In this document: positions 24,528-63,226 of the stretch, one piece after another
How positions within the stretch are numbered: position 1 is the stretch's first letter
How the letters are laid out: each line of letters opens with the position of its first letter
Assembly (NCBI RefSeq): GCF_900109545.1
Contig: NZ_FOAP01000004.1
Coordinates: forward strand, 248,001-312,000
Source: Stigmatella aurantiaca
GTDB taxonomy: Bacteria > Myxococcota > Myxococcia > Myxococcales > Myxococcaceae
Length of the DNA stretch: 64,000 nucleotides
Direction of reading: 5' to 3'
Made by a program: the position numbers and the translations under genes
The notes under the pieces: generated by a model
What the model was told of the DNA's origin: nothing
The model's database searches: none
The model's input: only the letters and a program-made list of their open reading frames with translations

Positions 24528-25289
24528 TCAGCGGGAGATGAGCGTGGACATGCGGTTGGCCACCAGGAACAGGGGGTCGATGGACCGGAGCCGCTCTGGA
24601 GCCGGCTTCAGCTGCAAGTGCTTGGTGACGAGGTGAAACTCGGTGCAGCCGGCGATGAAGCCATTCACGCCGTAGCCCCCCTCGTGGACCAGCCGCGCGC
24701 ACAGCTCGGCCGCCTGGGCCACTTCGCCATGCTTCTTGAGCCGGTAGATGGCGCCGTGGAGCTCGTCCTGGTCCTTCTCGCTGGGCCAGACCAGGTAGGG
24801 CGCGGCCTGGCGCCAACGCTCACTGCGCTCGAAGATGCCCGCGTTGCGCGTGCCCCGGCTGGTGAGGAGCAGCCAGCGCTCCCCGGAGGCGATCACCTCG
24901 TCGAGCGCCAGATCCACCAGCGAGACGGTCAGGTCGCGCAGCGGCGCGGAGACCCGGTTGAGAAAGTGGTGCATGGTGATGCAGGCAATCACCACCCGGC
25001 GCGCACCGAGGTTCTGCATGCGGCGCAAGGAGAACTCGAGCCAGCGCGTGACCGGCTCTTCCTCCCCGCGGACGATCGCATCGGTGCGATCGGGCACGTT
25101 GGGATCCGACAGGAGCAAACAGGCGGGGGCCTCTTGCTCCACCTCGAACCGGTTCTCCTCGTAGAGCGTCTTCAGGAACTCGGCCGAGGCCAGAGGCCCC
25201 ATGCCTCCCACGATGCCAAGCAGGGCCTGGGGGGCAACGGGGGCATTCCATGAGTCCTTCAGGACGTGCTGTCCGCCGGCGTTGTCCAA
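24528..25289 (-). CDS. aspartate/glutamate racemase family protein
   Basis: This 253-residue enzyme belongs to the PLP-independent Asp/Glu racemase family. The N-terminal signature is LGIVGGMGPLASAEFLKTLY. The two catalytic cysteines are in RVVIACITMHH (about 101) and FIAGCTEFHLV (about 216). The first motif departs from the usual PCNTAH. The start is TTG at 25289 with a weak GAGAG upstream; no in-frame ATG precedes the first motif. The gene is convergent with the Asp/Asn hydroxylase and divergent from the glycosyltransferase. In this setting it could supply a D-amino acid to a synthetase that has no epimerisation domain. The true substrate is not shown by sequence. Confidence 0.8.
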   Translation of the reverse strand: MDNAGGQHVLKDSWNAPVAPQALLGIVGGMGPLASAEFLKTLYEENRFEVEQEAPACLLLSDPNVPDRTDAIVRGEEEPVTRWLEFSLRRMQNLGARRVVIACITMHHFLNRVSAPLRDLTVSLVDLALDEVIASGERWLLLTSRGTRNAGIFERSERWRQAAPYLVWPSEKDQDELHGAIYRLKKHGEVAQAAELCARLVHEGGYGVNGFIAGCTEFHLVTKHLQLKPAPERLRSIDPLFLVANRMSTLISR

Positions 25290-25439
25290 GGTGTCTCTCG
25301 GTGAGCGTGCGGCGTCCTGGTGTCACGCCAGTCAGTTTAAGCCAGTAAAACATGATTATCGTGCCAGGGTTGGACGACGAAAACAAGAGAATTTTACACT
25401 GCGTCTGGTCTGCGCTGCCTGACGCGCGCGTGGAGTCCC

Positions 25440-26732
25440 ATGGCCACCATCCTGATTGCCCCCTTGCCGGTCCCGAGTCATGTCAATTCGAGCTTGCGGA
25501 TCGCCCGGTCGCTTCAGAAGAGAGGCCACCGGGTGATCTATCTGGGCATTCCGGAGATCGAGGAGGAACTCCGCGCCGAGGGGTTCGAGTTCAGTGCTGT
25601 GTTCGGGGACATTTTTCCCAGGGGGAAGATCGCGGAGCTGCGCGTGACTTCGGCGAAGCTGCGGGGCTTGCGCCTGCTGTGGTTCCTGCGCGGTCAGATT
25701 CGTGAAATCAACAAGGTGTTCCGGCGGATGGTGGAGGGCGAGCTCGATGAGCACTTCGCGCGGTTGCGCCCCGCGTTGCTCATCTGTGACGAGAAACTCC
25801 GCCACCTCTCGGTGATTGCGCACGGGCTCGGCATTCCCGTCCTGCAGCTGAACGGGACCATTCCGCCGGAGCTGATTCCGGCGAAGCCGGGGACACCGCG
25901 CGGCCCCGGCCGGGGCGATGTCATCCCGGGCGAGAAACTCCTGATGGCCCTCGGGCTCGTGCCCCGGCTGAACCCCACCTTGGTGCAGCTGGCGCGCAAG
26001 CACGGCTATCCCCTCAAGACCACCCCCAGAGGGCAGCCCGTGCTGGATCGCTCCCTTTCGCCTGAGCTTCTCCTCTGTCCACGGGAGTTCGCCGAGGTCG
26101 GCGGCCAGAGCGCGCCGGGCGAGTACCTCTACCTCGAGCCGTGCATCGATCTGGAGCGCCGCGAGGCCGAGTTTCCCTGGGAGCGCCTGCGCGATGACCG
26201 CCTGCTGGTCCTCTTCGCGCTGGGAACGCTCGCGGACGGCTCGAAGCTCAACCGGAGGCTCCTCGAAGCCGGGTTCGCGGCGGCCGCCCAGCGCCCCGAG
26301 TGGCAGTTCGTCATCGCGGTGGGCAGCACGGGCGATCCGGCGGCATTCAAGGTGCCGCCCAACGTGATCGCCGTGAAGGTCGCCCCCCAGCTGGGCCTGC
26401 TCCGGAAGGCGGCCGTGATGGTGAACCATGCGGGGACGAACAGCGTGAAGGAGTGCATCTACTTCGGTGTGCCCATGGTCTCGATTCCGCTGCAGTTCGA
26501 TCAGCCTGATATCGGGCGGCTCGTCGAACACCACGGCGTGGGCCGCACCCTTCCTCCCCCGGAGGTCACCGCGGACCGGCTGATCGCCGCCCTCGAGGAG
26601 GTGGTCCGCAACCCCGCATACAAACGTGCATGCGAGGCGCTGCGGCTCCACTTTCTCCAGGCAGAGGCCTCGTGGGGGGCCGCTGGCCCCATCGAGGAGT
26701 TCCTCACGCGGCGCACGGCGGCCCCTCTCTAA
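25440..26732 (+). CDS. UGT/MGT-type glycosyltransferase (GT1)
   Basis: This 430-residue GT-B enzyme belongs to the macrolide/UDP-glucuronosyl transferase group. The N-terminal acceptor domain opens with LIAPLPVPSHVNSSLRIARS. The C-terminal donor domain holds the UGT signature (APQLGLLRKAAVMVNHAGTN near 317-336, then GVPMVSIPLQFDQ). GGAG precedes the ATG. Its TAA overlaps the stop codon of the second synthetase by two bases, tail to tail. It most likely adds one sugar to the peptide or lipid part of the cluster product. No dedicated sugar-biosynthesis genes are in the window, so a common sugar nucleotide is likely (inference). Confidence 0.88.
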   Translation: MATILIAPLPVPSHVNSSLRIARSLQKRGHRVIYLGIPEIEEELRAEGFEFSAVFGDIFPRGKIAELRVTSAKLRGLRLLWFLRGQIREINKVFRRMVEGELDEHFARLRPALLICDEKLRHLSVIAHGLGIPVLQLNGTIPPELIPAKPGTPRGPGRGDVIPGEKLLMALGLVPRLNPTLVQLARKHGYPLKTTPRGQPVLDRSLSPELLLCPREFAEVGGQSAPGEYLYLEPCIDLERREAEFPWERLRDDRLLVLFALGTLADGSKLNRRLLEAGFAAAAQRPEWQFVIAVGSTGDPAAFKVPPNVIAVKVAPQLGLLRKAAVMVNHAGTNSVKECIYFGVPMVSIPLQFDQPDIGRLVEHHGVGRTLPPPEVTADRLIAALEEVVRNPAYKRACEALRLHFLQAEASWGAAGPIEEFLTRRTAAPL

Positions 26733-29700
26733 CTGTCTGCGGCGCGCTTCAGGGGGCTTGGCCAGGCGGGAAGATCCGTCAGCCTCCGGTCCGGGGCGGC
26801 CACGATGAACTCGACCAGGGCCAGGAACTGCTCCCGCATGGCCGCGATGACCGTGGGCCCGAAGAGGCCGGTTTTGTATTCGAAGGTGCCGCTCAGCCCT
26901 TCAGGACCGGCGATGACGTTGAGCTTGAGATCCGTCAACGTCCGCCCGCGCTGGAGGGGGATGGGGCTCACCGACAGCCCGGGCACCAGGGGGTGTTCCT
27001 TGCCGTCGAGGTGGGTGAACGAGAAGCCGACCTGCCACAGGTGGGGCATCCGCTTCATCAAGTCGTCCTGGGGCAGCCCCTGGTGCTGGAATGCTTCGAG
27101 ATACGCCGTCCGGACCCGCCGGAGGACCTCACGGAAGTCCGGGTTGTCCGACAGGTCCGTCCGGACGACCAGGTAGCCCGCGAACATGCCCAGGAGCTTC
27201 TCGAACTCGGGACGCGGACGGTTGGCATGGGAGAAGCCGACCGTGATGTCCTCTTGTCCGGCATAGCGCGACAGGAGCAGCTGAAACGCGCCGAGCATCA
27301 GCACGAAGGGCGTCACGCCCTCCTTGCGGCAGAGGGTCTGGAGCTCCTGCGAGAGGCTGGGGGAGAACGCGAAGGGCTGAAGGCTGCTGGCGAGGCCCTC
27401 GTTCTCGTGGCGAGAGCGCTCGTAGGGCAGGGCAACCGGGGGGAGCGGTTCCGCGAGCTTCTGATCCCAGTACGCGCGCAGCTTCTCCAGGGCCTCTCCG
27501 CGCAGCCAGTCTTGCTCCCAGCGGGTGACGTCCCGGTATTGCAGGGCAGGCTCCGGGAGCCGGAGCGGTTGTCCCTCGTGCAGGGCGGCGTAGCCCGCCG
27601 CCAGCTCTCCCATGAAGAGGGAGGTGGAGACGTAGTCGGTGATCGCGTGGTGCTGGTTGAGGAGCAGCAGGTGCGCCTCGGAGCCGAGCCGGAACACGGT
27701 GGCCCGCAGCAGCGGCCCGCGTGCCAGGTTGAACGGGCGGTTCAGCTCCATGCCGATGCGGCGCATGGCCTCCGCCTCGCGCTCCTGCTCGGGCAACCCA
27801 CCGAGGTCGACCTGCTCCAGCCGGACGTCTCCCTGCGGGGCGATCCGTTGAACGGGAACACCCTCAACGGTGGGGAACGTCGTCCGGAGGATCTCGTGGC
27901 GCCGGACAAGCTCGCGGAGGCTCTCATCCAGGGCCGCCACGTCGAGCGGACCGTCCAGGCGGAACGCCGAGGGAGACGAGTGGGCGAGATCCTCGGGCCC
28001 GTGCTGGGCGGACGACCAGTACACCTGCTGGCGAACCGAGAGCGGCAGCACCTCGCAGGGGGGCGTGGGCGTGACGGGAGGAAGCTGCGGACCGGGCATG
28101 CCCCCGCTGGCCTCGATGCGCGCGGCGAGCGCCGCCACGGTGGGCTGCGCGAAGAAGTCGGTCAGGGACAGCTCGATGCCGAAGATGCCACTGACCCGCA
28201 CGGCCAGCTGCGAGGCCATGAGCGAGTGCCCGCCCAGCTCGAAGAAGTCGTCCTCGATTCCGGCGGGGCCGCATCCGAGGATGTCGGTCCACACGGAGGC
28301 GAGAATCTCCTCGAGCGGTGTGCGGGGGGCAATGCGCCCCCGGCCCTGCGTGATGAGGCTGGCCTCGGGATCAGGCAGTGCCTTGGTGTCCACCTTCCCG
28401 TGGGGCGTGAGCGGCATCGCGTCGAGGGGCACCCACACGGATGGCACCATGTAGTCGGCGAGCTTCGTCCGCGCGAACGCCCGGAACCCCTCGGCGGCGT
28501 CCGGGGTGCTCTCCAGGGGAACGAAGTAGGCCACGAGCCGCTTGCCACCGGAGGGATCAGGCCGCACGGTGACGGCCACCTCTTGCGCTTCGGGGTACTG
28601 CCCGAGCACCGCCTCGACTTCTCCCAGCTCGATGCGGAATCCACGGACCTTTACCTGGTGGTCGGCGCGTCCCAGGAACTCGAGCTCGCCGGAGCGCAGG
28701 TAGCGCACGAGGTCTCCCGTCCGGTACATCCGCCCACCGGGCTCGGGGGCGAAGGGGCAGGGGATGAACCGTTCGGCCGTGAGGTCTGGCCGGACGAGAT
28801 AGCCTCGCGCCAGCCCCACGCCGCCCACGAACAGCTCGCCGATGCATCCCACGGGCACGGGCTCGAGGTGGGCATCGAGGACATAGAGCTGCACGTTCGG
28901 GAGCGGACGGCCGATGCCAGGCCGCTCGATCGCCACGTCGAGACTGATGCTCGCGCAGACCGTCACCTCGGTGGGGCCATAGGCGTTGAGGAACTTCCGT
29001 CCAGGCTTCCACTGGGCGGCGATCTCGGGCGTGCACGCGTCTCCCGCGGAGATGACGACCTTCAGCCCTTCCAGCCCCTGGGGATCGAGCTGTGCCAGGA
29101 CAGGTGGCGTCAGCGTCACCGTGGTGATGGCTTCCCGGGTGAGCAGCCCCCGCAGTGGGGCGCCCGGCATCATCTCGTCACGCAGCGCCAGGTGCAGGCA
29201 CCCGCCGCCCAGCAGGGTGGCGAAGACCTCGGAGACCGAGGCGTCGAAGCCGAGCGCCGCCGCCTGGAGCACCCGGCTTCCAGGGCCCACCTCGAACGCG
29301 CTTACCTGGGCCAGTGCGGTGTTGCACAACCCCCGGTGGGCCAGCAGGGCTCCCTTGGGGTGACCCGTGGAGCCCGAGGTGAAGATGACGTAGGCGAGAT
29401 TTCCAGGCGTCACATCCACGGGGGGCGCGGTCTCGGGATGGCGGCAGATCTCCGCCCACTTGGTGTCCAGGCAGACCGGGAACTCCGACTGGATCGGAAG
29501 CTCGTCGAGGACGCGCTCCTGGGTCAGCAGCACGGAGACCGCCGATTCACCCAGCAGCAGGGAAATGCGCTCGGTGGGGTAGGCCGGATCCAGCGGGACG
29601 AAGGCGCCTCCTGCCTTCAGCACGCCGAGGAAGGCCACGGCCAGCTCGAGGGAGCGATCGAGGCAGACCCCCACGCGGCCCTCGGGTCCGACGCCGAGGG

Positions 29701-32700
29701 AGCGAAGGTAGTGCGCGAGCTGGTTGGCCCGGCGGTCGAGCTCCTCGTAGGTCCAGACCGTGCCCTGGAAGGCCACCGCTGGTGCCCCGGGCGTGCGGCG
29801 CACCTGCTCTTCGAACAGGTGGTGCGCGCAGCGGCCCTCGGGCAGCTCGGCGCGCGCCGCATTCCAGGCCACCAACTGCTGGTGGCGCTCCTCCCCGGAC
29901 AGGACGGGCAGGGCGGACAGCCGCAGGTCCGGCGTGGTGACCACCGCCTCCAGCAGCCGCTGGTAAGCCGCCGCCATCCGGACGATCGTCTCCGCGTCGA
30001 AGAGGTCCGTGCTGAACTCCCACAGCCCAATCAGGCTCCCCTCGTACTCCTCGAGGATGAGCGAGATGTCGTACTTGGACGTCGGGTTCTCGAACTCCAC
30101 GCCGCTCAGGGACAGGCCCGGCAGGTGCAGCTCCGGGGCCGGCATGTTCTGGAGCACCAGCTTGACCTGGAACAGCGGCGAGTGGCCGAGCCCACGCCCC
30201 GGGTTGAGTGCCCGGACGAGCTCCTCGAAGGGCAGGTCCTGATGGGCGTACGCCTCTAGCGAAGTCTCCCGGACACGCGCCAGGAGCGCCCGGAACGTGG
30301 GGTTCCCCTCGAGCCGTCCCCGGATGACAAGCTGGTTGACGAAGAAGCCGATGAGGCCCTCCAGCTCGGCGTGGTTGCGGCCCGCGACATCCGTTCCCAC
30401 GGGGATGTCGCTCTGCCCGGTGTAGCGCGCGAGCAGCGCCTGGAAGGCGGCCATGAGGGTCATGAAGAGCGTGGTCCCCTCCGTGCCGCTGAGGCCCTTC
30501 AAGGCCTGAACGAGGGGAGGGGGCAGGGCGGCCCGGTGGTGCGCGCCCCGCAGGCTCTGCGTCACGGGCCTTGGGCGATCCGTGGCCAGTGGCAAGACCG
30601 GTGGGGCCCCTTCGAGCTGCCGCCGCCAGTACGCGAGCTGCGCTTCGAGCACCTCGCCTTGCAGCCAGTTGCGCTGCCACGATGCGAAGTCCGCGTAGTG
30701 GAGGGAGGGCTCGGCGAGCGGCGAGGGCTTGCCCTCGATGAAGGATTCGTAGAGCGCCATCAGATCGCGGATGAGGATGCCGCGCGACCAGCCGTCCGAG
30801 ATGATGTGGTGCATGACGAGCACCAGGACGTGCTCGTCCGCGGACAGCCGGAACAGCGAGAGGAGCAGCAACGGGCCCCGTGCCAGGTCGAAAGACCCGC
30901 TCGCCTTCTTGATGATGAGTTCCACGACGATGCCGTGGCGCTGATCCTCGGGCGTCTCCGAGAGGTCGACGACCCCCAGGGGGACGGAGAGCGAGGGGAG
31001 GATGCGCTGCACCGGCTCATCGCCCTGCAGCTCGAAAGCCGTGCGCAAGCTCTCGTGGCGGCGGACGATCTCATCAATGCAGCGCTGGAGAACCTCGACG
31101 TCGAGCCTTCCCTGGAGCCGGATGGCTCCCGAGACGTTGTAGGCCGGGTTGCCTGGCCGCATCCGGTCCACGACCCAGAGCCGCTTCTGTGCGAAGGACA
31201 GGGCCAGATGCTTCGAGCGGGGGGCGGGCACCAGGGGCGGTGGGCCCCCTCCCTCCTGGTTGCTCCGGGAGATGGCCTCGATGCGCGCGGAGAGCGCCTC
31301 CACCGTGGGATGGGCGAACAGCTCGCGCAGGGGAAGGTTGACGCCCAGCGCCGCGCGCACGCGCGATACGGCCTGTGTGGCCAGCAGCGAGTGTCCGCCC
31401 AGGGCGAAGAAGCTGTCACGGATCCCGACGCGCTCGACCCCCAGGAGCTGCTTCCACAACCCGGCGAGGATCTCCTGGGTGGGGGTCCGGGGCATCAGCG
31501 CAGGGGATGCGCTGTCCGTGCCGCGCCGCTGTGCGGCCTCCGCTGCGGGCAGGAGTGCCGCGCGGTCGACTTTGCCATTCGGAGTGCGGGGCAGCACGTC
31601 GAGCGGCAGATAGGCCGAGGGAATCATCGGCTCGGGCAGGCGGGTGGCGAGGAAGGCGGTGAGCTCGGTATCGCTCGGAGCCGTGGCGCCGTTGGAGACG
31701 AAGCACGCGACGAGCCGCGAGCCTCCGTCCGCATCAGGAAGGGCGAGGACCGAGGCGGCGCGGATGCCGGGGTGACGCGTCAGGGTCGATTCGATCTCGC
31801 CCAGCTCCACCCGGTTGCCGCGCACCTTCACCTGGTCGTCACGCCGTCCCACGAATTCGAGCGTTCCGTCGGCGCGCCAGCGTCCGTAGTCGCCCGTGGC
31901 GTACAGGCGTGCTCCGGGCTGGGCCGCATCAGGGTGGGGCACGAAACGGTCGGCGGTGAGCTCCGGCCGGCCGGGATAGCCGTGGGTGACACCCTTCCCG
32001 CCGATGTGGATCTGCCCGACGATTCCGCGGGGGACGCGCTCACCTTGGCCATCGAGCAGGAGGACGTCCGCGTGATCGATGGGCCGTCCCGCGGGCACCA
32101 CGCCCGTGGCGTCCTGCGCGGACGCGATGTGGTACGTGCTCGTCAGCGTGCACTCGGTCGGGCCGTACTGATTGACGATCTGCACCCCGGACCCGAAGAC
32201 CTCGCGCGCCCGCTCGATGTCCGTGGCGAGGAGCCGCTCTCCACTGCAGAGGATCAACCGGACCGTGCCCAGGGCACGCGGCCGGGAACCCGCTGCGGCG
32301 ATCAGCAGCCGGAGCAGGCTGGGAACGACGCTGGGCAGCAAGGTCACGCGGTGGTGCTCGATGGCCGCGAGCAGTTCCTCGGGATCGCGTCCCCGGTCGC
32401 CATCGGCGAAGACCACCGGGGCCCCCAGCAACACGGGGAGCAGCATGTCGCGCAGCGAGGCATCGAACGAGGCCGAGGCAAGCTGCAGCGCGGTGTCCTG
32501 GGGGCCAATCTGGTACGTGCGCTCCAGGTACCCGGCGTAGTTCAGGATCCCCGCGTGATGGCCGATGATGCCCTTGGGCGCTCCGGTGGAGCCGGACGTG
32601 TAGACCAGGTGCGACACATCATCGCCCCGGAGGCCCGGCTCCAGGCCTGGCGCTCCGGCGGTGTCCACGAGGGACTCGATGAGCACGGGCTCGGTCCGCC

Positions 32701-35700
32701 ACGCCTCCGGGAGCTGTCCACACCGGGTCTGATCGGTGACGACGACGCGCGGCCGTGCATCGCTCAGCATGTAGGCCACGCGCTCGGGCGGATAGCCTGG
32801 GTCGAGCGGCACGTAAGTGCCGCCCGCTTCGAACACGCCCAACAGGGTGGAGAGGAGCTCGGGCGAGCGGGGAAGGAAGACGGCGACGGGTGTCCCTCGC
32901 TGGACTCCTCGCCGGACCAGTTCCTGCGCGAGGGTCCTGGCACGGGCGGCGAGGGCCTCGTAGCTCACCGTGTGCTCACCCATCACCGCGGCGCGGGCTG
33001 CCGGCGTGCGGCGAACCCACGAGCGGAAGCGCTCCAGGACGGACGCCGGAGACGCGGGGGGACGGACGCCCCGTTCCAGGTGCTTGAGCTCCTCCTGCTC
33101 GTCCAGGGAGATGAGCGGCGCGGCGCTGAGGCGCTGGCCCGGATTGGCGGCCGCGAACTCCAGGAGGGTTCGCAGGTGGCTGGCCATGCGCTGGATGGTG
33201 CGGGAGTCGAACAGCGCCGTCGCGTACCGCAGCACGCCCTCCAGACCGTTGGTGGTCTCGGTGAAGGACAGGCTGAGATCGAACTTGGCGGCCTCCTCCG
33301 CGGCGGGCAGGGGGCGCAGCTTGAGGCCACCGGGCAGGGACAGCTGGGGCACCGGCGCGTTCTGCAGGATGAGCAGCACCTGGAACAGCGGCGAGCGGCT
33401 GCGGTCCCGGGGAGGGGCGATTGCCTCCACCAGCCGGTCGAAGGGAATGTCCTGGTGGGCGTAGGCGCTCAGGGTGACTTCACGCACCCGCCCGAGCAGC
33501 TCGCGGAACGTGGGGTCCCCCGACAGGTGCGTCCGCAGGGCCAGGGTGTTGATGAAGAACCCGACGATGCCTTCCAGCTCGGAGCGGTTGCGGCCGGCGA
33601 TCGGTGTACCCACGACGACGTCGTCCTGCCCCGAGTAGCGGGCCAGGAGCGCCTGGAAGCCGGCCAGCAAGACCATGAAGAGCGTTGAGCCCTCTTGCAG
33701 GCCGAGCTTCTTGAGGGACTCGGTGAGCTCGCGAGGGAGGACCACGGGGCAGGTTGCCCCTTCGTAGGCGGGCACCGCGGGCCGGGGGCGATCCGTGGGC
33801 AGCTCCAGGGCGGGCGGGGCCCCCGCAAGCTGCGCACGCCAGTGGGCGAGTTCGGCTTCGAGCACCTCGCCCTGGAGGTGTTCCCGCTGCGAGCGGGCGA
33901 AGTCCGCGTACTGCAAGGGAAGCTCGGGCAACTGGGGTTGCTGCCCAGCGGTGAACGAGGCGTAGAGCGCGGCGAGTTCCCGGATGACGAGGCCCAGCGA
34001 CCAGGCGTCGAAGACGCTGTGGTGCACCGTGAGGGTGACGAGGTGCTCGCCTGCGCCCAGCTTCAGGAGCTTGGCGCGCAGGAGGGGGCCTTTCTCCAGC
34101 TCGAAGGGCCGGCGGCCCTCTTCCTCCGCGACGCGGCGGGCTTCGTCCGCGCGTGCCGCTTCGGGGACGCTGCGAAGGTCGATGATGGGCACTTCCAGGT
34201 CCAGCCGGGGGGCAATCACCTGAAAGACCTGGTCGCCGTCCTCGGCGAAGGTGGTCCTGAGGGACGCGTGGCGCGCCACCAGGGCCTCGATGCTCCTCAC
34301 CAGGGCGCCCACATCGAGGTCTCCCTCGCAATGCAGGGCCGTGTGGATGTTGTAGACCGCAGTGCCCGGCTCCAGGCGCTCCCAGAACCAGAGGCGCTGC
34401 TGGGCAAAGGACAGGGGCGCCCGGGACGGCGTGGTGCTGATGCTGGTGGGAGCGGTCTTCGGGAGCGCGCTGGGCGTGCTCCGGCTGCGGGCGATGGCCT
34501 CGGCGAGGCCCGAGACCGTCGGGGTCTCGAACAGCGCCCGGATCGGCAAGTCGGTCCGGTAGGTCTCACGCACGCGTGACAGGAGCTGCGTGCCCAGCAG
34601 CGAGTGCCCGCCGAGATCGAAGAAGCTGTCGTGGATTCCCACGGGCTCCACGCCCAGGAGCTCCTGCCACAGCGTCACCAGCTGCTGCTCCAGCTCGTTG
34701 CTGGGTGCCACGTAGGGGGTGGGAAGCTCGGGGCGGGCATGGGACGCCGCGGAGGCCTGTGCCTGAGGCGAGGCCGCCGGTTGAATCCAGGTGGCCAGAC
34801 GCGCGGCGAGATCTCCGGTCGAGAGCGCCCAGCGCGGGACATCGCTGGCCAGCACGCGCCGGAAGGCGGCAACGCCTTCGGCCATGGTGAGCGCCAGGAC
34901 GCCGCCGTGGGCTTCTTCCGCCTCGCTCCATCCGTCCCAGTTCACACTGAGCCAGGGCGTTTCCGAGTTCCGCCCCTGGCGGGCCGCGAAGGCATCCATG
35001 AACAGGTTGGCTGCCGCATAGGCCGCGAAGCCCACGCCTCCCAGCACCGCCGCCAGCGACGATTGCAGGAGCACGAAGTCCAGCGAACGGCCGCGCAGCA
35101 CGGCCTCCAGGGCCAGCACGCCGCGCACCTTGGCCGCGAACTGCTCCCCGTGCCGTGGATCGTTTGGCTCCAGCACTGGAACGTGGGCGCTCTCACCCAG
35201 GCTTCCCGCGGAATGAATCACCCCGTGGAGCGCGCCAAAGCGCTTCTCGGCGCCCGCGACCACGGCGGTCAGCTCCTCCAGGCGGGAGGCATCCGCGCGG
35301 GCCACCCAGACCTGGGCACCGCGCCGCTCGAACTCGAGAAGCCGGCGGATCCGCTGCGAGGTGCTGTCGCTCGTGTCATGCGCCGCCAGCCAGCGGTCCC
35401 ACTCTTCGCGGGCGGGGAACGGGGATCTGCCCACGAGCACCAGACGCGCCTGGAACGAGGTGGCGAGTTCCTCGGCCAGGGCAAGGCCGATGCGGCCGAG
35501 TCCGCCAGTGATGAGGTAGACGCCTTGCTCGCGCAACCGGCCTGTCTTGGGCTCCGGGGACCGGGCGCGCTCGTACGTCTCGGCCCAGCGCCGTCCACTC
35601 CGGTACGCGATGACCGGCTCGTCAGACTGGGCTTGGAGTTCCTCGGCGAGCTGCCGCGCGAGCCGCTCTCCACCGGCCTCGGCCGGAGAGACATCGATCG

Positions 35701-38700
35701 TGCGCACGCGCAGGGCGGGGGACAGCTCCTGCGGAAGGACCTTGCTGAGGCCCAGGAACAGGGCGTTCGCAGGGCACAGGGGCTCTTCTCCCGTGACGTC
35801 CTGAACGCCGCCGGTGATGACGGCAAGCTCGATGGATTCCTTGGCGCCCCGCGCGTTCAGCGCGTTGGCGAGGTGGAGCAGGCCGTGGAAGCCACGGACT
35901 GCCCGGTCCACGGCCTCGGCCTCATCCTTCGACGCCGTGGTGACACTCCCCAGATAGACGGCCTTCTGGGGAGCCCAGCCTTCCGCATCGAGTTCCGACA
36001 GCAACCGCGCATAGCCTTCGGGTTGGCCTTCGGCGACGGTGAATTGCCGGGGCCCCTGGCGCCCGTAGGCATCCCCGTGGCTGACCTTCACCACGTCGGC
36101 GCCGGTGGCCTCCAGGCGCTTGGCCAGGGCTGGGCCGAGCTGGCCGTCGAGGAGCACGAGCCACCGGGCGGTGGCCGCACCCGGAGCTGGGGGCACGGCG
36201 CGCTTCCAGCCGGGGACGTAGAACCAGTCCGCGAGCGAGCCCTGCTTGCGCGCGAGCCCCGAAGGGGCCGCCGTGCGTGCCAGGCTGGGGCCCGCCCCCG
36301 GACGGGGGTCGATCCAGTAGCGCTCGCGCTGAAAGGGATAGGTGGGCAGGGGAAGCCGGCGGCGGTGCCCGGCGGGATGCAGGCCGCTCAGCTCCAGCGG
36401 AGCCCCCGCGAGCCACAGATGGCCCACCGTCTCCAGGAAGCGTGCCCGGCCCGCCACCGATTCGCGGGGGTGGCGCAGGGAGGACAGGATCGTCCGGCGT
36501 CCCTGGGGCTGTGCGGTCTGCCGCACCAGTGCCCCGAGCGACGTGCCGGGGCCCACTTCCAGGAAGACATTCGCCTCGTCTTCGAGCAGCCGCTTCACGC
36601 CGTCGCTGAACCGCACGCACTGGCGCAGGTGCTCCACCCAGTAGCCGGGATCGGTGGCTTCCTTCTCGGAAATCCACTGGCCGGTCAGGTTCGACACGTA
36701 GGGCTTGCGCGGCCGCGACAGACGGATCCCGCGCACCTTCGTACTGAACGCGTCGAGGATGGGGTCCATCATCGCGGAGTGGAAGGCATGGGACGTGTGC
36801 AGCCGGCGGTACTCGGCCTTTCGCTGGGCGAGCACGGCTTCCAGGGCCTCCACCAGCTCCGTGGGGCCTGACGCCACACAGAGGGAGGGCCCGTTCACGG
36901 CGGCCAGGGACAGCGCGGGCCCCAGCAGGGGCCGGAGCTCGGCCTCCGGCAGCGCGACGGACACCATGGCCCCACTGGGGAGCGTCTGCATGAGCTGGCC
37001 GCGCGCTGCCACCAGCGAGAGCGCATCCTCAAGCGTCATCACCCCGGAGAGGCACGCGGCGACGTACTCGCCGACGCTGTGGCCGATCATCGCCTGGGGC
37101 GACACGCCCAGCGACATCCACAGCTTCGCCAGGGCGTAGCTGATGACGAAGAGGGCAGGCTGGGTCACCGAGGTCTGGACGAGGCGCGCCTCCGCCGCGG
37201 CCAGGTCCGCGTCCGCGGGCGGAAACAGCACCTCCTTCAGGTCGAAGCCCAGCGTGGGCCGGAGCCGGGTGCAGCAGTCGTCGACCTGTTTGCGGAAGGC
37301 CGGTTGCGACTCGTAGAGCTCCCGTCCCATGCCCACGTACTGCGCCCCCTGGCCGGGGAACAGGAAGACGACAGGGCGCGAGGTGGCCTCTTGCGTCGCG
37401 GACAGCAGGCGCTGGGGGCTCCGGGCCTCCAGGACCGCGCGCGCATCGTCCGCATCACGGCAGACGAGGACGCGGCGGTGCTCGAAGCGCTGGCGTCCCA
37501 CCTGAAGCGTGTGCGCCACCTGGCCCAGCTCGGCCGTGGGGTGCTCCTGGAGCCAGGCCTGGAGGTTCGCGGTGGCCGCCTCCAGCGCCGGAGCGCTGCG
37601 CGCCGAGAGGGTCAGCAATTGCCAGGGCCGGTGGTCCGGCTTCGTTTCCTCGCGGGGCGGTGCTTCCTCCAGCACGAGGTGTGCGTTGGTTCCACCGATG
37701 CCAAAGGAGCTCACGCCCGCCCGGCGCGGCATGCCGCCGGTCTCCCACGGGCGGAGGGTGTCATTGACGAAGAAGGGACCGCTGGTGAGGTCCAGCTTCG
37801 GGTTGGGCCGCTCGAAGTGAAGGGTCGGCGGGAGCTCGCGGTGCTGGAGGGCGAGGACGGTCTTGATGACCCCCGCGATACCCGCGGCGGCGTCGAGGTG
37901 GCCAATGTTGGTCTTCACAGAGCCGAGCGCGCAGCGCATGGCCGCGTTGCCCTTGTTCCGGGCACGGAAGGCCTTGGTGAGGGCCGTGACTTCGATCGGG
38001 TCCCCCAGGGGCGTGGCCGTCCCGTGCGCCTCCACGTACGTCACCGTCTCCGGTGGGACGTCCGCCATTCCGAGCGCTTCGGAGATGACCGCGGCTTGTC
38101 CTTCGACGCTTGGCGCGGTGTAGCCCAGGCGCGCCTCGCCGTCGTTGTTGACCGCCGAGCCCCGGATGACCGCCAGGATCGGATCCCCATCGGCGATGGC
38201 ATCGGCCAGGCGCTTGAGGACGACGACGCCCGCGCCTGAGCCCCGGACCATGCCGGCGGCTTGCGCATCGAACGTCCGGCAATGCCCGTCCGGCGAGAGG
38301 ACGCCACCTTCCTGGTAGGCGTAGCCGGTGCGCTGGGGCAGTGCGATCGATACACCGCCTGCCAGGGCGATGTCCGACTCGCCGGTCAGCAAGCTCTGAC
38401 ACGCCAGGTGGACGGCGACGAGCGAGGAGGAGCAGGCCGTCTGAACCGCGATGCTCGCCCCCCGCAGCGCCAGCTTGTGGGAGACGCGGGGCGGGAGGAA
38501 GTCCTTGTCGTTGCTGATGCCGACCTGGAACGTGCCCATGCCCTGAACGACGTCGGGACGCGACATCAGGTTGGCGTACAGGTACGACGAGGCGCCCGCC
38601 CCGGCGAAGAGCGAGATCAACCCGCGGTACGTCTTGGACACGTACCCCGCACGCTCGAGCGCCTCCCAGCAGCACTCCAGGAACACGCGGTGCTGGGGAT

Positions 38701-38978
38701 CGAGGATCTCCGTGTCGCGGGGGCTCAGGTCGAAGAAGCCGGCGTCAAAGCGCTCGACCTCATCGAGGACGAACCCCGAACGCACGTATCCCGGTTGGGA
38801 GATCCGCGAGGGATCGGCGCCATCGGCCAGCATCTCCGCGTCGGTGAACTCCGAGCGGGCCTCCACCCCCTGGCGCAGGTTGTCCCAGAAACGCTCCAGG
38901 GTGGCCGCCTGGGGGAACCGGCCGGCCATGGCGATGATGGCCACGCCCTCGGGGCGAGGCGTGGACTGCTCTTCCGTC

Positions 38979-38986
<8 letters not shown>
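26729..38986 (-). CDS. hybrid PKS-NRPS: KS-AT-KR-ACP-(C-A-PCP)x2-C
   Basis: This 4085-residue second synthetase of the cluster opens with a KS (Cys185 in TACSSS, EAHGTATPLGDP, KTNIGH). An AT follows (Ser637 in GHSVGEY, HAFH motif indicating malonyl-CoA), then a KR (TGGLGRIG near 1162, AAYAAAN near 1322) and an ACP (Ser ~1462). Next come C6 (~1515-1950, HHSVFDAW), A6 and PCP6 (Ser ~2532), then C7 (HHIISDG), A7 and PCP7 (Ser ~3587). The last domain is a condensation domain, C8 (~3640-4075, HHAITDY). There is no DH, ER or thioesterase. Hand-aligned codes give A6 DARPLSQLTK (no match known to me) and A7 DASTIAAVCK (Tyr-like). The start lies 8 bp inside the upstream synthetase gene with AGAGGA before it, so the two are coupled. 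Confidence 0.93.
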
Positions 38987-57053
<18,067 letters not shown>

Positions 57054-57109
57054 ATGGGCCAGTCTATTCAGTTTTGACAGCTTTAAGACAGTGGCAACCC
57101 CGGCGGTCA

Positions 57110-57203: not shown

Positions 57204-59732
57204 CTAGTCGGCCGAGAGGGAGATCTGCGTCAGGGCCGGATCGGAGAGGATGTCCTCCTCCGTGAAGCGGACCGCGCGCCACTGCTTGCGTGCGAAGAGC
57301 TCGGTCTGGTCACGGTAGTAGGGCGAAGCTGGATCCGAGGACTCGCCGTACGTCAGCACGGCCCGCGCATTCGGGCCCTGCCCGGTGAACTCCAGGGCCA
57401 TGATGAAGCTGGAGCCGTTGGCGACGATGTAACCCTCGGAGGTCAAACCTGTCCCGGGGACGAGCACTGGGCCCCGTGCCGGGGGCAGATCGATGGCCGT
57501 GGACTGCAGGGCGTCATAGGAGACGACGTTGGCCACGCCGTCCCGGTGCAAGCCCCCGTGCAGGCCAATGCGCTTGCCGCCGCGAGGGGAGAACTGCACG
57601 GTGGCCAGCGGGACGTCCAGGGCGATGTTCGCCCCCTGCAGCACGGTCACCGCCTGCGCGAGGTTGACCAGCGCCGGGTCCTCACCCGTGGCCGGAGCGG
57701 GCACCAGGGTGTTGGGCGTGGTGATGGGCGCGTCCGGGTTGAACCCCTGGAGGAAGAGCGAGCCCTTGTCGAAGAAGTGAGGCCCCGGGTAGACGGCGGT
57801 GAACTCACGCCAGAGCACCGCGCCGGTGCTGTCCGCGTCGAAGCGGCCGTTCCAGGTGCTGAGCGTCGCGCAGGCCTGGGTGAGGTTCACGGTCTTGCCG
57901 CCGTAGGTGGCCGAGGGCGTGCGCTGGCAGCGCTCCACCACTTGGGCGAGCAGCAGCTCCGAGGTGATGCTGCGGTTGCTGAGAATCGCGGCCTGGAGCT
58001 CGTCGAGCGTGAACTGACCGTCCGCGCCGGAGGCTCCCTCGGGGCTCAGCTCGGTGAGCATCTGCATGTTCATGCGCGTGCGGGGAGACGGGGGGCGGCC
58101 GGCGAAGCCATGCATCGGAGAGAGCTCCGGCAGGGGCGCCGCCGGATTGGTCAGCCAGTAGCTGTCGTTGGCGTTGAAGACGAAGTCCCGGCGCGCCAGC
58201 TTCGGCGCCTGGGAGAAGGGCACCAGCCCCGGGGTCCGGGCGCCGGGTGCCTCCACCCACGCGTTGGCGGAGGTGCTGCCATCCAGCAGCACGAGGCCGA
58301 GCGAGCGCAGCAGCTGGGTCGCCAGCGGGTCCACCCCCGAGGAGGCCTTGAGCCAGGACTGGATGGCCGCGTTGCTCAGGTTGGGGGCGGCCGCGCCATC
58401 CACGTACCAGGTGTTGCCGTCGCGATCCGCCACCAGCGTGTTGACCCAGGGAATGCCCTGGTGGGTGGCGAATGCCTCCTGGAACTCCCGCAGGTTCTGC
58501 GCCCGGTTCATCGCGTGGAACTGGGAGATCAGCTGCGTGTTGTTCAGGTTGGCATCGCAATAGGTGTACGCGAACTGGGGGCTCCAATCCGCGGCGCCCG
58601 GAATGACGATGATGGGCCCGAAGTGGCTGCTGTAGAGCGTGCGGCTCAGCGGGACGAGCGAGCCGTCCGGCTGGCGCACGGAGACGGTGTGCGTGCGCGC
58701 GGCCAGCGGCCACTCCTTGCCGTCATAGAGGTAGTGGGTGGGCTTGCCCGGCACGAGCTTGAGCCGGTAGAGCGTCATGCGCTGGCCCGCGGAGACCGTG
58801 TGCGTCCAGGCGACGTTGTCGTTGAAGCCGATGAGCACACCCGGCACACCCAGCAGGCCCACGCCATAGACATTCATCACCCCGGGGACGGTGAGATGGC
58901 TCTCCCAGAACCGCAGCTCGCCCTGCCATGGGAAGTGGGGGTTGGCCACGAGCATGCCCCGGCCTCCCTGCGAGCGCTCGGCGCCAATGGCCCACCCGTT
59001 GCTGCCGACGTCCCGCTCGCGCAGCGCCTGGAGGCGCTCCAGCGAGGGCGCATCGAAGGTCTCCTGGGGCCGCGCGGTGATGCCCGGGGGCGCCGGTGGC
59101 TGGGCGGCGGCGATGGCGGAGATGAACTGGTAGCTGCTCGTGAGCAGCCCCAGGCTGATGTGATACGCCATCAGGTCCACTTCATTGAGGGGCTTCACCC
59201 ACGCGGCGTTGGCGCACGCGGCGGGCAGGCCGCCAGGGCCGGTCTCTTCGAGGTAGCGGTTGTAGCCCGCGACGTACCCCTGGAGCATCGCCCGGATATC
59301 GGGCGTCAGTTGAGGGAGCGCCTGGCCCGCGCGTGTGTAGAGATCCAGGGCCACGTAGCCGAGATCGCTGGCCACGTGGGCATTGCCGGGGCCCGGGCCC
59401 AGGTAGCGCGCGCGTTCGCCGCGGACCTTGAGCACCTGATCCGCCAGCGAGCAGACATGGTCCTGGGCGAACGCATACCCCTGGCCATACGCCACGCTGC
59501 CCAGGTCCTTGCCCGTGATGTGGGGAATGCCGTGGCTGGTGCGCCGGATGGTGGCCTCGAAGCGAGGCCCCTGGGGCGGAAGCGGCGGCGGCGGCTCGGG
59601 GGTGTCCTCGCTGCAGGCCGTCACGGCGAGCAGCGCGAGCAGCGCGGCCACGTACCTCGGGGGCTTCCGGGTGCCTCGAGCCACAGGAGAAGAGAACAAG
59701 GAGGAGGAGCGGTGCAGGCGGGCAGGAAGCAT
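57204..59732 (-). CDS. penicillin-acylase-family lipoprotein (PvdQ/aculeacin-acylase-like)
   Basis: This 842-residue Ntn-hydrolase precursor has a hydrophobic signal ending in a lipobox (AVTAC), so it should be exported and lipid-anchored. After a Pro-rich spacer comes the alpha-chain region (TSHGIPHITGKDLGSVAYGQ, then GYAFAQDHVCSLADQVLKVR). The autocatalytic site DVGSNGWAIG makes Ser244 the N-terminal nucleophile of the beta chain. NPHFPW and LLGVPGVLIGFNDNVAWTHT are also typical. Relatives remove acyl chains from penicillin, acyl-homoserine lactones, aculeacin and, in PvdQ, from pyoverdine precursors. It lies between the CmlA-like hydroxylase (52 bp) and the FAAL-NRPS (150 bp) on the same strand. 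Cleavage of the lipopeptide product is an attractive inference. No ribosome-binding site is obvious at the only ATG. Confidence 0.88.
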   Translation of the reverse strand: MLPARLHRSSSLFSSPVARGTRKPPRYVAALLALLAVTACSEDTPEPPPPLPPQGPRFEATIRRTSHGIPHITGKDLGSVAYGQGYAFAQDHVCSLADQVLKVRGERARYLGPGPGNAHVASDLGYVALDLYTRAGQALPQLTPDIRAMLQGYVAGYNRYLEETGPGGLPAACANAAWVKPLNEVDLMAYHISLGLLTSSYQFISAIAAAQPPAPPGITARPQETFDAPSLERLQALRERDVGSNGWAIGAERSQGGRGMLVANPHFPWQGELRFWESHLTVPGVMNVYGVGLLGVPGVLIGFNDNVAWTHTVSAGQRMTLYRLKLVPGKPTHYLYDGKEWPLAARTHTVSVRQPDGSLVPLSRTLYSSHFGPIIVIPGAADWSPQFAYTYCDANLNNTQLISQFHAMNRAQNLREFQEAFATHQGIPWVNTLVADRDGNTWYVDGAAAPNLSNAAIQSWLKASSGVDPLATQLLRSLGLVLLDGSTSANAWVEAPGARTPGLVPFSQAPKLARRDFVFNANDSYWLTNPAAPLPELSPMHGFAGRPPSPRTRMNMQMLTELSPEGASGADGQFTLDELQAAILSNRSITSELLLAQVVERCQRTPSATYGGKTVNLTQACATLSTWNGRFDADSTGAVLWREFTAVYPGPHFFDKGSLFLQGFNPDAPITTPNTLVPAPATGEDPALVNLAQAVTVLQGANIALDVPLATVQFSPRGGKRIGLHGGLHRDGVANVVSYDALQSTAIDLPPARGPVLVPGTGLTSEGYIVANGSSFIMALEFTGQGPNARAVLTYGESSDPASPYYRDQTELFARKQWRAVRFTEEDILSDPALTQISLSAD

Positions 59733-59784
59733 AAGGGGCGGACGCTAGGAAAACAGTCTTGACGGGGTCAATGGGGGGCGGCTC

Positions 59785-61380
59785 TCAGCCCAGGAGGAAT
59801 TCGCCGCGGATGAAGGGCATCTCGGCCTGGATGCCGTGGGCCCGGCAGTGCTCCAGGAGCTTCCGGGCCTCGATGAGCTGGGGCGAGGTCTCCGTGTAGC
59901 CCATGGCCATGATGTGGCCCAGCCAGGGCTCCCGGCCCATGGCGTAGACATAGACCTGCTTGGGGTGGAGCTGGTTGACGATCTCGATGGCCCGCTGGGC
60001 GTTGGAGCCGTTGAGCCGCCGGGACTGGTCCGCCTTGCGGGGCAGGGGGGTGGTCAGCAGCGCCCCGTACATCCAGCTCATCGGCGCGCCTTCGCTCTCC
60101 ATGCCCAGGAACAGCACGTCGATGTCGCCCACCACGCGCTGAATGTGCTCGTACAGGCGCGGCTCGATGGCATTCGAGTCCGCCGCCATGAGCAGGGACT
60201 TGCCCTCGAGGTGGACCAGGTGGGCCGTCTTCGCGCGGATGTTCAGGTCGCCGTGCTCGCCGAGGAAGGGCAGGCCCGTGATGGAGCCGCCCGGGATGTC
60301 CAGGGTCTCGAACTCGTCGATCTCCACCACGTTCGGGAAGCCCGTGTGCTTCAGGAGCAGCTTGAGCGAGGGGTCCGCCAGCGCGCCGCTGTTGCTGCGC
60401 GGGACGACGATCGTGCCAATGCGCCGGCGCAGCGGCAGGAGCGTCTCCAGCATCAGGTGGTCGGCGTGGCCGTGGGTGATGAGCACGTAGTCGATCCGCT
60501 CGGGCAGATCCGCCTCGGTGAAGCGCGGTACGCCGGCGTTCGTGTCATGGCTGAGCACGGGATCCGTGAGGATGCTCACCTCGCGCGACTCCAGCAGGAC
60601 GCAGGCATGGCCGAAGTAGCGCATGCGCACCCCAGGGCCCTCGTGGCGGCGGCGGGGCTGGGGGGCCTCGGTGGTGAAGAAGGCCGCGAAGCGCTCGGCA
60701 TCCGCATTGCGAATACCCAGGGCCTCCATCACGGGCTCGATGGGCGCGGGCGTCTCGCGCATGGCGAAGAGGGTGTCCAGCGCCTCGTGGCGGAAGGGAA
60801 CGTGGACGTGGACCGTGCCCTCGTCGCTGTCCAGCCGGGGCGTGCTGTAGACGTAAGGGCGGGCATCTCCCTGGAGCAGCCGGAAGGCGAGACTCTGCGA
60901 AGACTCTCGGTAATGGGGGCTGCGGTACATCAGGGGCTCGATGAAGCGGACGGCGGGGCGGTGGTTCAAGTCGTACGTCAGCTCGACGTAGCCCCGGAGG
61001 ATGTCCGGCACTTGGGCGTACAGCCCCTCCAGGGACATGGCGGGGGGCGCCTTGGCGAGCAGCTTCTCCAGATCGGCGATGGCCCGCGCCAGTTGGATCG
61101 AGGGGGCCTGCTCCGTCTGGGTGCGCTCCAGAAGCGCCTTCACCTCCGCGGCGCGCTCCACCCCGTAGTTGAGGTACGGGCCTCCCCGCAGCGCGGGATC
61201 CTTCAGCGCGGAGACATGGAGCTCCGGCGACTGCACGAAGGACTGCATCAGCTTCAGGTGCAGGTGGGTGACGAAGAGGGGAGCCGTCGTGGGCGGGATG
61301 AGGTACCACCACGCGTACCACTGGTTGTAGAGCGGCTCGATGGCGACGTTGCGCTTCAGGTACCGGGCGGAAGAGGACAT
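59785..61380 (-). CDS. CmlA-type non-heme diiron beta-hydroxylase
   Basis: This 531-residue protein has the two-part build of CmlA, the diiron enzyme that beta-hydroxylates a carrier-bound aromatic amino acid in chloramphenicol synthesis. The all-helical N-terminal half includes EPLYNQWYAWWYLIPPTTAP and RGYVELTYDLNHRPAVRFIE. The C-terminal half is a metallo-beta-lactamase fold with the metal motif ITHGHADHLMLETLLPLRRR near residue 301, GLPFLGEHGDLN and AADSNAIEPRLYEHI. Length (CmlA is about 530) and motif order agree. A generic MBL annotation would miss the N-terminal domain. As the first gene of the cluster operon, it probably hydroxylates one of the residues on the synthetases; the aromatic sites are the best candidates (inference). 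Confidence 0.82.
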   Translation of the reverse strand: MSSSARYLKRNVAIEPLYNQWYAWWYLIPPTTAPLFVTHLHLKLMQSFVQSPELHVSALKDPALRGGPYLNYGVERAAEVKALLERTQTEQAPSIQLARAIADLEKLLAKAPPAMSLEGLYAQVPDILRGYVELTYDLNHRPAVRFIEPLMYRSPHYRESSQSLAFRLLQGDARPYVYSTPRLDSDEGTVHVHVPFRHEALDTLFAMRETPAPIEPVMEALGIRNADAERFAAFFTTEAPQPRRRHEGPGVRMRYFGHACVLLESREVSILTDPVLSHDTNAGVPRFTEADLPERIDYVLITHGHADHLMLETLLPLRRRIGTIVVPRSNSGALADPSLKLLLKHTGFPNVVEIDEFETLDIPGGSITGLPFLGEHGDLNIRAKTAHLVHLEGKSLLMAADSNAIEPRLYEHIQRVVGDIDVLFLGMESEGAPMSWMYGALLTTPLPRKADQSRRLNGSNAQRAIEIVNQLHPKQVYVYAMGREPWLGHIMAMGYTETSPQLIEARKLLEHCRAHGIQAEMPFIRGEFLLG

Positions 61381-61392
61381 GGCTGGAACAGG

Positions 61393-61427
61393 GCAGGTAG
61401 GTTGAAAGCGGGGCCTAGCCTACCTGC
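61393..61427. promoter_or_regulatory. 9-bp inverted repeat upstream of the cluster operon
   Basis: A perfect GCAGGTAGG ... CCTACCTGC repeat with a 17-base spacer lies in the 75-bp gap between the histidine-kinase stop and the CmlA-like gene start. There is no T-run. It could be an operator for a dimeric regulator of the biosynthetic operon, or a stem-loop in the transcript. Confidence 0.45.
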
Positions 61428-61455
61428 TTGCCGTGTCCATCAGCCATCCCGGCCG

Positions 61456-63036
61456 TCAGTGAATCCCTTCGGGGGGCGCCGGCGGCTCCTCGCCTGGGGG
61501 CCCTGGCTTCACTGGGAGGAGGATCCGGAAGGTGGTTCCCACCTCCAAGGTGCTGCTCACCGAGAGCTCTCCGCCCAGGCCGCGGATGATGTCATGGCTG
61601 ATGGAGAGCCCCAGGCCCGTGCCCTCGCCCACGGGCTTGGTCGTGAAGAAGGGCTCGAAGATGCGCTCCAGGTGCTCGGCGGCGATGCCGCAGCCATTGT
61701 CGTGCACTTCCACGAGCACCCGGCTGGGGCTGTGCATGCGGGTCACCAGGCGGATCTCTCCCCCGGTCTTGTTCAAGGCCTGGGCGGCGTTGATGAGCAG
61801 GTTGACGAACACCTGGGAGAGCTGCACCGAGTTGCCCTGCACGAGCGACAGCTCGCCATAGTCGCGCACCAGCCGGCCCTTGCTGCGCAGCCGGCTCCAG
61901 GCCAGGTGGACCGAGTTCTCCAGGACTTCGTTCAGGTCCACCGGCTGGGTGGTGATGGAGTCCCCGCGGGAGAGCGCCTTCAGGCTCTGGACGATGACGC
62001 GCATGCGCTCGGCCCCCTCGCGCGCGTCGGAGATGGCCTCCCGGAGCTCATCCATGTCGAGGGACGGCACCGCCACCCGGCGCAGCTCCGTGTCGATGAA
62101 GTTGAGGTTGCTGGAGACGAACGCCAGCGGGTTGTTGATTTCATGGGCCACCCCCGCGGCCAGCATGCCGATGGCGGCCATCCGCTCGTTGAGCCGCAGC
62201 CGCAGCTCGTTCTCTCGCAGCCGGGTGATGTCGCGCATCATGACGGCCATGCAGTTGCCCACCGCGTTCAGCTGCCTGCGGAACCAGCGGCGCCCCTGGG
62301 GCAGCACCTGCTCCACCTCCTCGTCGTGAGGCTTGCCGGTTCTCCACACCTCCTGGCACAGGTGGGGCGGCGCGATGAAGTTCGCCTGGGGAAACTCCGT
62401 GAACAGCCCCCCCTCGGCTTCCGTGGCCTGGCAGCCCAGCAGGGCTTCGCCGTGGGAGTTGAGGCGCAGCAGGCGCAAGCCGTCGGGGTCCTCCCGCAGA
62501 AGGAAGAACGCGTCGAAGCTGCTGTTGGACGTGGCGCGGAAGAGCGCCTCGCTCTGAAGCTGGACCGCCTCGCTGCGCCGGTGATCCGACAGGTCCCTCG
62601 ACATGCCGAACAGCCCCACCACCTGGCCGTCGGGGCGGCGAAGAAGCCCTTTGGTGGAGACCCACTCGCGCCGCACACCGCCCAGGAACTCGGTCATCTC
62701 CGCGTGGAGTGTGCGCCCGGCCAGCAGCGTCTGCCGGTCGAACTCCAGCGTGTTCTGCGCCTCCTCGGGCGTCATCAGCTCGCTGTCCTTGCGGCCGAGG
62801 ATCTCCGGGATGGACAGGCCCAGGTAGCGCGCCCCCGCGCTGTTGATGAAGGTGTAGCGGCCCTGGAGATCCTTCGTGTAGACCGCCTCGGGCAGCAGCT
62901 CCGCCACCGCCAGGAACAGCTCGCGGTAGGGCAGCTCGGCGTGGGTGGGATGCGCTCCACCCGCTGTGCCCTGCCGGTCAGGGGGCGGGGTCAGGATGGA
63001 CCCCTGGGTCACGGCAGTCACATTGTTATCACTCAT
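61456..63036 (-). CDS. PAS-domain sensor histidine kinase
   Basis: This soluble histidine kinase of about 526 residues has a PAS domain at ~45-155 (LPEAVYTKDLQGRYTFINSA), a second PAS-like region at ~170-280, HisKA with the phospho-acceptor His in GVAHEINNPLAFVSSNL (~296), and a HATPase domain (NLLINAAQAL, DNGCGI, FEPFFTTKP, GTGLGLSIS). No membrane segment or receiver domain is present and no response-regulator gene is adjacent. The frame is open to 63219; the ATG at 63036 is preferred because the extra N-terminal part is low in coding signal, although the ribosome-binding site there is poor. It lies on the same strand 75 bp before the biosynthetic operon, so it may influence it or merely border it. 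Confidence 0.85.
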   Translation of the reverse strand: MSDNNVTAVTQGSILTPPPDRQGTAGGAHPTHAELPYRELFLAVAELLPEAVYTKDLQGRYTFINSAGARYLGLSIPEILGRKDSELMTPEEAQNTLEFDRQTLLAGRTLHAEMTEFLGGVRREWVSTKGLLRRPDGQVVGLFGMSRDLSDHRRSEAVQLQSEALFRATSNSSFDAFFLLREDPDGLRLLRLNSHGEALLGCQATEAEGGLFTEFPQANFIAPPHLCQEVWRTGKPHDEEVEQVLPQGRRWFRRQLNAVGNCMAVMMRDITRLRENELRLRLNERMAAIGMLAAGVAHEINNPLAFVSSNLNFIDTELRRVAVPSLDMDELREAISDAREGAERMRVIVQSLKALSRGDSITTQPVDLNEVLENSVHLAWSRLRSKGRLVRDYGELSLVQGNSVQLSQVFVNLLINAAQALNKTGGEIRLVTRMHSPSRVLVEVHDNGCGIAAEHLERIFEPFFTTKPVGEGTGLGLSISHDIIRGLGGELSVSSTLEVGTTFRILLPVKPGPPGEEPPAPPEGIH

Positions 63037-63226
63037 GCAACAGCATGTATCCTCATCACGAGGAAACCGGCAGTTGGACCCGGGCGCAAGAACGGGCTTT
63101 CCGTCCACCAGCGCACCTTTTGAGCAGGGGAGAGTGTCAGCCCCTCTCAATTCAGCGGGATTCTTTGCTGGGTGCTCAACCGTGCGTCCAGGAAGAGGAA
63201 CGCCCGGGAGGAGGCTCACCCCGGCG

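Follow-up and report, generated by a model that had tools for sequence, protein, structure and literature searches.

A predicted lipoprotein acylase adjoining a FAAL-started peptide synthetase in Stigmatella aurantiaca as a candidate deacylase of the cluster's own product

Introduction

Why would a gene cluster whose peptide synthetase starts by loading a fatty acid also encode an exported acylase? The question is raised by a stretch of 64,000 nucleotides from the Stigmatella aurantiaca contig NZ_FOAP01000004.1 (here called the window), in which an acylase gene lies between a CmlA-like gene (upstream) and the gene of a nonribosomal peptide synthetase started by a FAAL-ACP module (NRPS-A, downstream), all on the minus strand. 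The initial annotation had seen in this arrangement a lipopeptide operon whose acylase likely strips the N-acyl chain from the product, and had likened that step "precisely" to the action of PvdQ. In pyoverdine biosynthesis, acylated ferribactin loses its acyl group to PvdQ in the periplasm; the reason for adding the group in the first place is stated as open (PMC6206403). As a concept, the removal of a fatty acid from a peptide synthetase product is already known, from PvdQ, GdnD and Tem25, and it has been proposed for vioprolide and corramycin. New in the present case is a cluster-linked, PvdQ-like candidate deacylase of myxobacterial lineage that is predicted to be a lipoprotein and is paired with a FAAL start; the open-access literature gave no report of this cluster and no published product matching it.

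Results

The acylase reading frame has a single ATG as its sole start, and the encoded protein matches the Pfam family PF01804 (Penicil_amidase) with E=4.5e-138 (462.7 bits vs a cut-off of 21.3), over residues 59-828 of the protein and positions 1-673 of the 675 in the profile. Read by eye, its N-terminus runs from a basic n-region through a hydrophobic core to the lipobox VTAC with Cys40, and a comparable N-terminal Cys motif was recognised, likewise by eye, in most of the Myxococcaceae acylase homologues. The enzyme is accordingly predicted to be a membrane-anchored lipoprotein. The motif DVG/SNGWAIG (the slash marks the cleavage point) aligns with Ser-beta1 of PvdQ and retains an intact G/SN, and the alignment shows all five of the positions that we take to be catalytic in PvdQ (Ser-beta1, His-beta23, Val-beta70, Asn-beta269 and Arg-beta297) to be kept. 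Self-cleavage at G243/S244 into an alpha and a beta chain would be expected from this motif. The description of a lipobox-bearing protein of the penicillin acylase family, as first put forward, is borne out by the profile match, the Cys40 lipobox and the Ser-beta1 alignment together. Val (as opposed to Phe) at beta70 was considered as a marker of NRPS-linked acylases and dropped, Val being common in unlinked acylases too.

An AlphaFold model of the mature acylase precursor, built on a 31-sequence alignment (pLDDT 92.5, pTM 0.91), matches the Ntn-hydrolase fold. PvdQ and MacQ were the best solved relatives in the sequence search. MacQ, an AHL and beta-lactam acylase of Acidovorax, represents the closest full-length solved structure (TM-score 0.84-0.85 against the uncleaved precursor, 32% identity), and the comparison with the PvdQ beta chain gave a TMt of 0.93. 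Structural alignment puts the identity to PvdQ at 34-35%, with beta-Trp162 of PvdQ replaced by Phe. Orthology to PvdQ was rejected on two grounds: the protein scores 598 bits against the PvdQ equivalog model NF051460, vs a cut-off of 950, and in the tree it falls into a Myxococcaceae clade, far away from PvdQ, which groups with Pseudomonas. Between the acylase and its orthologue in the genome G001, dN is 0.044 and dS is 0.156 (NG86), consistent with purifying selection.

The genes around the acylase (Table 1) bear out its position between a CmlA-like gene and a FAAL-NRPS, as initially annotated, by PF18456, the FAAL models and the minus strand throughout. The CmlA-like protein combines the CmlA N-terminal domain (PF18456) with a metallo-beta-lactamase-like domain (Lactamase_B_2), and its closest solved structures in a phmmer search are 8a90 (E=2.7e-132) and CmlA 4jo0 (E=9.9e-125). 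Whether the histidine kinase farther upstream is a member of the cluster is uncertain; between the kinase and CmlA-like genes, an inverted repeat GCAGGTAGG...CCTACCTGC was noted by eye (~61390-61440, minus strand). For NRPS-A, ATG 57053 is the likely start, the longest frame opening at TTG 57146. Its FAAL domain scores 345-438 bits against FAAL models (345-398 bits for FadD32, FadD21 and FadD28), all below the cut-offs set for full-length proteins, vs 168 bits against the best general acyl-CoA ligase model.

Table 1. Features of the acylase locus, in positions of the window.
Feature	Coordinates	Strand	Basis
PAS sensor histidine kinase, upstream of CmlA-like gene	61456..63219	-	profile search; 93% identical in G001
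CmlA-like di-iron beta-hydroxylase	59785..61380	-	PF18456 E=2.3e-85; Lactamase_B_2
GTCAAGACTG element, 21 nt upstream of acylase start	59754..59763	-	GTCAARACTG exact match
PvdQ/MacQ-like Ntn-hydrolase acylase precursor, 842 aa	57204..59732	-	PF01804, solved relatives, AlphaFold, purifying selection
Predicted type II (lipoprotein) signal peptide, lipobox VTA/C, Cys40	59613..59732	-	sequence and homologues
Ser244 codon: putative autocleavage point G243/S244, N-terminal nucleophile of beta chain	59001..59003	-	PvdQ beta1 alignment
GTCAAAACTG element, 15 nt upstream of likely NRPS-A start	57069..57078	-	GTCAARACTG exact match
NRPS-A: FAAL-ACP-C-A1-T-C-A2-T-C-A3-T-C-A4-T-C-A5-T	38979..57053	-	Pfam, NCBIfam FAAL families, motifs, A-domain residues
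FAAL-ACP loading module, fatty acid onto N-terminus	54987..57053	-	FAAL models and carrier domain PF00550
NRPS/PKS-B: KS-AT-KR-T-C-A6-T-C-A7-T-C(terminal)	26729..38986	-	Pfam and motifs
MGT/UGT-type glycosyltransferase, convergent with NRPS-B	25440..26732	+	PF00201; TIGR01426 152 bits, below cut-off 260
Asp/Glu-type amino acid racemase	24528..25289	-	PF01177 E=2.7e-19; TIGR00035 105.9 bits vs a cut-off of 93.1
Aspartyl/asparaginyl beta-hydroxylase family protein, PF05118	23765..24511	+	E=4.9e-50

The pocket residues of the seven A domains, read by hand, are DASTLAAVC, DAFWLGGTF, DLTKVGEVG and DFWNIGMVH for the first four, and DACTIAAIC, DARSLSQLT and DASTIAAVC for the last three. We take the first four codes to mean Tyr-like, Val, Asn and Thr, respectively, DACTIAAIC to be perhaps aromatic and DASTIAAVC to be Tyr-like, leaving DARSLSQLT without an assigned residue. 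The peptide is thus predicted to start as acyl-Tyr-Val-Asn-Thr, in which Val is possibly of D-configuration. Neither Pfam nor motif searches found a thioesterase in NRPS/PKS-B; a terminal C domain with the motif HHAITDY occupies the C-terminus instead (~26729-28200, minus strand) and is kept in the related genomes G059 and G060.

The term operon in the initial annotation calls for one reservation. The gaps around the acylase gene (52 and about 150 bp) and a 10-bp element that recurs upstream of both the acylase and NRPS-A point to possibly separate promoters, which leaves a single operon unproven in the window. The pattern GTCAARACTG, picked after being seen, has only these two exact matches in the 64 kb (0.01 expected in shuffles) and is present at both corresponding places in G001, whereas with one mismatch allowed its count is at chance level; it is a possible sign of co-regulation of acylase and NRPS-A, to be used as a lead only. 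Promoter and terminator scans found nothing.

The pairing of the acylase with its synthetase is conserved. Five genomes carry the same acylase and FAAL-NRPS cluster, namely that of the window, G001, Myxococcus sp. AM401 (G059, also numbered G097), Corallococcus sp. AS-1-6 (G060, also G085) and G083, and in the latter four the acylase lies directly upstream of the orthologous FAAL-NRPS. Identity to the window proteins is 91% for the acylase, 97% for NRPS-A and 96% for NRPS-B in G001; 67% (acylase) and 76% (NRPS-B) in G059; 67% and 73%, respectively, in G060; and 65% for the acylase (tblastn) and 80% for the KS-AT in G083. A 60-protein phylogeny unites the five linked acylases in a single clade (SH-aLRT 100), whose sister group consists of unlinked acylases from Myxococcaceae. 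G059 and G060 each also carry an unlinked acylase paralogue distinct from the linked copy. CmlA had no match beside the cluster in these two genomes, their best copies (61-63%) being located on other contigs with no NRPS match within the stretch read, so the link of acylase to FAAL is tighter than that of CmlA. In G083 (L233-L234) the homologous cluster contains a pair of acylases from separate clades, which share 65% and 46% identity with the window acylase and have a glycosyltransferase between them.

Linkage of this kind bears on whether the enzyme could be a general-purpose acylase, used in AHL quorum quenching or in the hydrolysis of penicillins or foreign lipopeptides, that does no more than adjoin the cluster. 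The family does have such activities: PvdQ and MacQ hydrolyse AHLs, and related acylases also take penicillins (PMC8388760). Most other Myxococcaceae homologues show no NRPS within the flanks examined, and 13 of 83 further acylase-family loci match another cluster query protein, most of the others matching none, many with just 1.5-3 kb of flank; the acylase fold evidently has other jobs too. Yet the conserved position in five clusters, all within one clade, the repeated pairing of other acylase lineages with FAAL-NRPS genes (see below) and the finding of no other PF01804 gene in the Stigmatella genome (9.37 Mb, 99.99% complete) all argue against this, and we regard a general-purpose role as quite improbable. 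MacQ itself is a characterised quorum-quenching enzyme with no tie to a lipopeptide cluster in the literature read, in contrast to the cluster-linked acylase of the window. For AHL synthase, the Stigmatella genome gave no match, and neither did the control genomes, so this negative carries little weight.

Acylases of other lineages also occur next to FAAL synthetases. In G005, an acylase gene of another branch is followed after 4 bp by a different, unrelated FAAL-ACP-C synthetase. In G088 and G093 a third-clade acylase is embedded, on one strand, between the NRPS genes of a FAAL cluster (in the stretch used, the G093 acylase is interrupted by one stop); G073 and G084 each encode a relative at most about 8 kb away from a FAAL cluster and on the strand opposite to it. 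FAAL or NRPS genes adjoin related acylases in actinobacteria too (L050, L055, L057, L105). These genomes are rich in NRPS genes; a place directly before a same-strand FAAL-started synthetase is much rarer, which we offer as an observation on clustering, without a formal probability. Counting the window clade, the G005 operon and the G088/G093-type clusters, and bearing in mind that some clusters (G083) hold two acylases, temporary lipidation might be recurrent in the Myxococcaceae, FAAL synthetases tagging peptides that lipoprotein acylases, recruited at least three times, untag outside the cytoplasm; we put this generalization at slightly below even odds.

The FAAL start is not always paired with a linked acylase. 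On contig C33 of the Stigmatella genome (L170-L172), a second FAAL-NRPS/PKS cluster includes KS-AT, a glycosyltransferase and a CmlA paralogue and has no acylase. Its product could be one of several lipopeptides of the cell on which the window acylase acts in trans, much as GdnD, encoded far from its own cluster, takes many lipopeptides (PMC10587159). The conserved linkage makes the local product the first candidate substrate, and we consider the broader action decidedly unlikely. It would be compatible with, not exclusive of, a dedicated role in the acylase's own cluster.

Discussion

Based on the evidence collected here, the acylase is best understood as a dedicated deacylase that would remove the FAAL-loaded N-acyl starter from the peptide of its own cluster, a reading drawn from sequence to which we assign a probability of roughly 0.7. 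It is suggested by the conserved linkage, the clade structure, the single-copy status and the separate 4-bp coupled pair in G005, and it agrees with the catalytic set, the fold and the precedents of PvdQ, GdnD, vioprolide and corramycin. To proceed, the FAAL-ACP module would load a fatty acid on which the NRPS/PKS builds an N-acyl peptide; the acylated peptide would cross the inner membrane; and the lipid-anchored, self-cleaved acylase would hydrolyse the amide outside the cytoplasm, freeing the N-terminal residue, so that the final product would be non-acylated with a free N-terminus. Removal of the N-acyl chain by an exported enzyme, as initially annotated, is the reading best supported by this evidence; the accompanying notion of a prodrug or self-protection form represents one of two directions, the sequence favouring neither. 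Deacylation could activate the product, as in vioprolide, or detoxify it, as in glidonin.

There exist analogies to PvdQ, which shares with the window acylase the Ntn-hydrolase fold, the five catalytic positions, the G/S cleavage site and the envelope location (predicted here), and which likewise belongs with an NRPS that begins by loading a fatty acid on its first module. This precedent suggests maturation. The equivalence of the two was nonetheless worded too strongly at first, considering the failed equivalog cut-off, the predicted lipid anchor and a myxobacterial lineage far from PvdQ; in addition, the cluster genes examined included no recognisable dedicated exporter of the PvdE type. A second line of precedent, again suggesting maturation, is offered by vioprolide, of which a fatty-acid-linked precursor, described as inactive, is hydrolysed to the product, and by corramycin, for which the removal is proposed explicitly as a pre-drug step; the corramycin candidates ComB and ComC (a putative hydrolase and a flippase-like exporter) are not described as PvdQ-like acylases (PMC10099666). 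Both synthetases start with FAAL-ACP, as does NRPS-A, but continue as FAAL-ACP-C-HAD-T, whereas the second module in the window is C-A-T. Vioprolide and corramycin were rejected as the product on this difference and on the A-domain residues that read Tyr-Val-Asn-Thr.

The same reaction could serve the opposite purpose, with the acylated peptide active and self-toxic and the acylase acting as a resistance or clean-up enzyme in the producer's envelope. The precedent is GdnD, which has been shown to deacylate glidonins: the acylated forms inhibit the producer and the non-acylated ones do not, and the enzyme is read as one of detoxification (PMC10587159). The same source names Tem25, of telomycin biosynthesis, as a further enzyme with this role. 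Both are PvdQ-like acylases that strip the fatty acid from an NRPS lipopeptide, as proposed here; Tem25 is encoded inside the telomycin cluster, like the window acylase in its own, whereas GdnD lies ~1 Mb from the glidonin cluster, in which a Cs domain takes the starting place of the FAAL. A lipid-anchored envelope enzyme would fit a guard role, and the cluster glycosyltransferase is related to macrolide-inactivating and self-immunity enzymes, although it scores below the cut-offs of those models. Set against the inactive precursor of vioprolide, and with sequence unable to separate the two directions, detoxification appears to us an unlikely purpose, albeit one with a serious claim.

If the dedicated deacylase reading is true, the default prediction of a lipopeptide for this FAAL-started cluster is wrong, and the mature molecule, lacking the lipid, would be missed by genome mining that looks for lipopeptide masses. 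A lipoprotein acylase of PF01804 adjoining a FAAL-NRPS would then provide a sequence rule by which to search myxobacteria for such compounds, and the several natural acylase/FAAL pairs would lend themselves to asking why cells attach a fatty acid and then remove it.

Lastly, the far end of the cluster holds candidates for further tailoring. The glycosyltransferase, possibly involved in self-protection or in glycosylation of the product, is 74% identical in G059, 70% in G060 and 69% in G083, but the G001 cluster gave no match for it; other FAAL clusters (L170, G073, G084) are flanked by related glycosyltransferases as well. The racemase is conserved beside the cluster in G001, G059, G060 and G083. 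The PF05118 hydroxylase (71% identical in G001, 69% in both G060 and G083) may modify the peptide Asn or an acyl chain; its nearest NCBIfam models are those of the lipid acyl hydroxylases OlsC and LpxO, with scores well below the cut-offs. Antisense reading frames at 25356-26651 and 23711-24439 (minus strand) were rejected as cluster genes, the coding strand being the plus strand of the glycosyltransferase and the PF05118 hydroxylase. A GH18 chitinase-like protein with fibronectin III and CBM5/12 domains adjoins the cluster (21320-23554, minus strand). Elsewhere in the window, a protein with an AHH-family nuclease domain is followed by one that matches Imm11 and SUFU (4856-7594, plus strand), likely a toxin-immunity pair.
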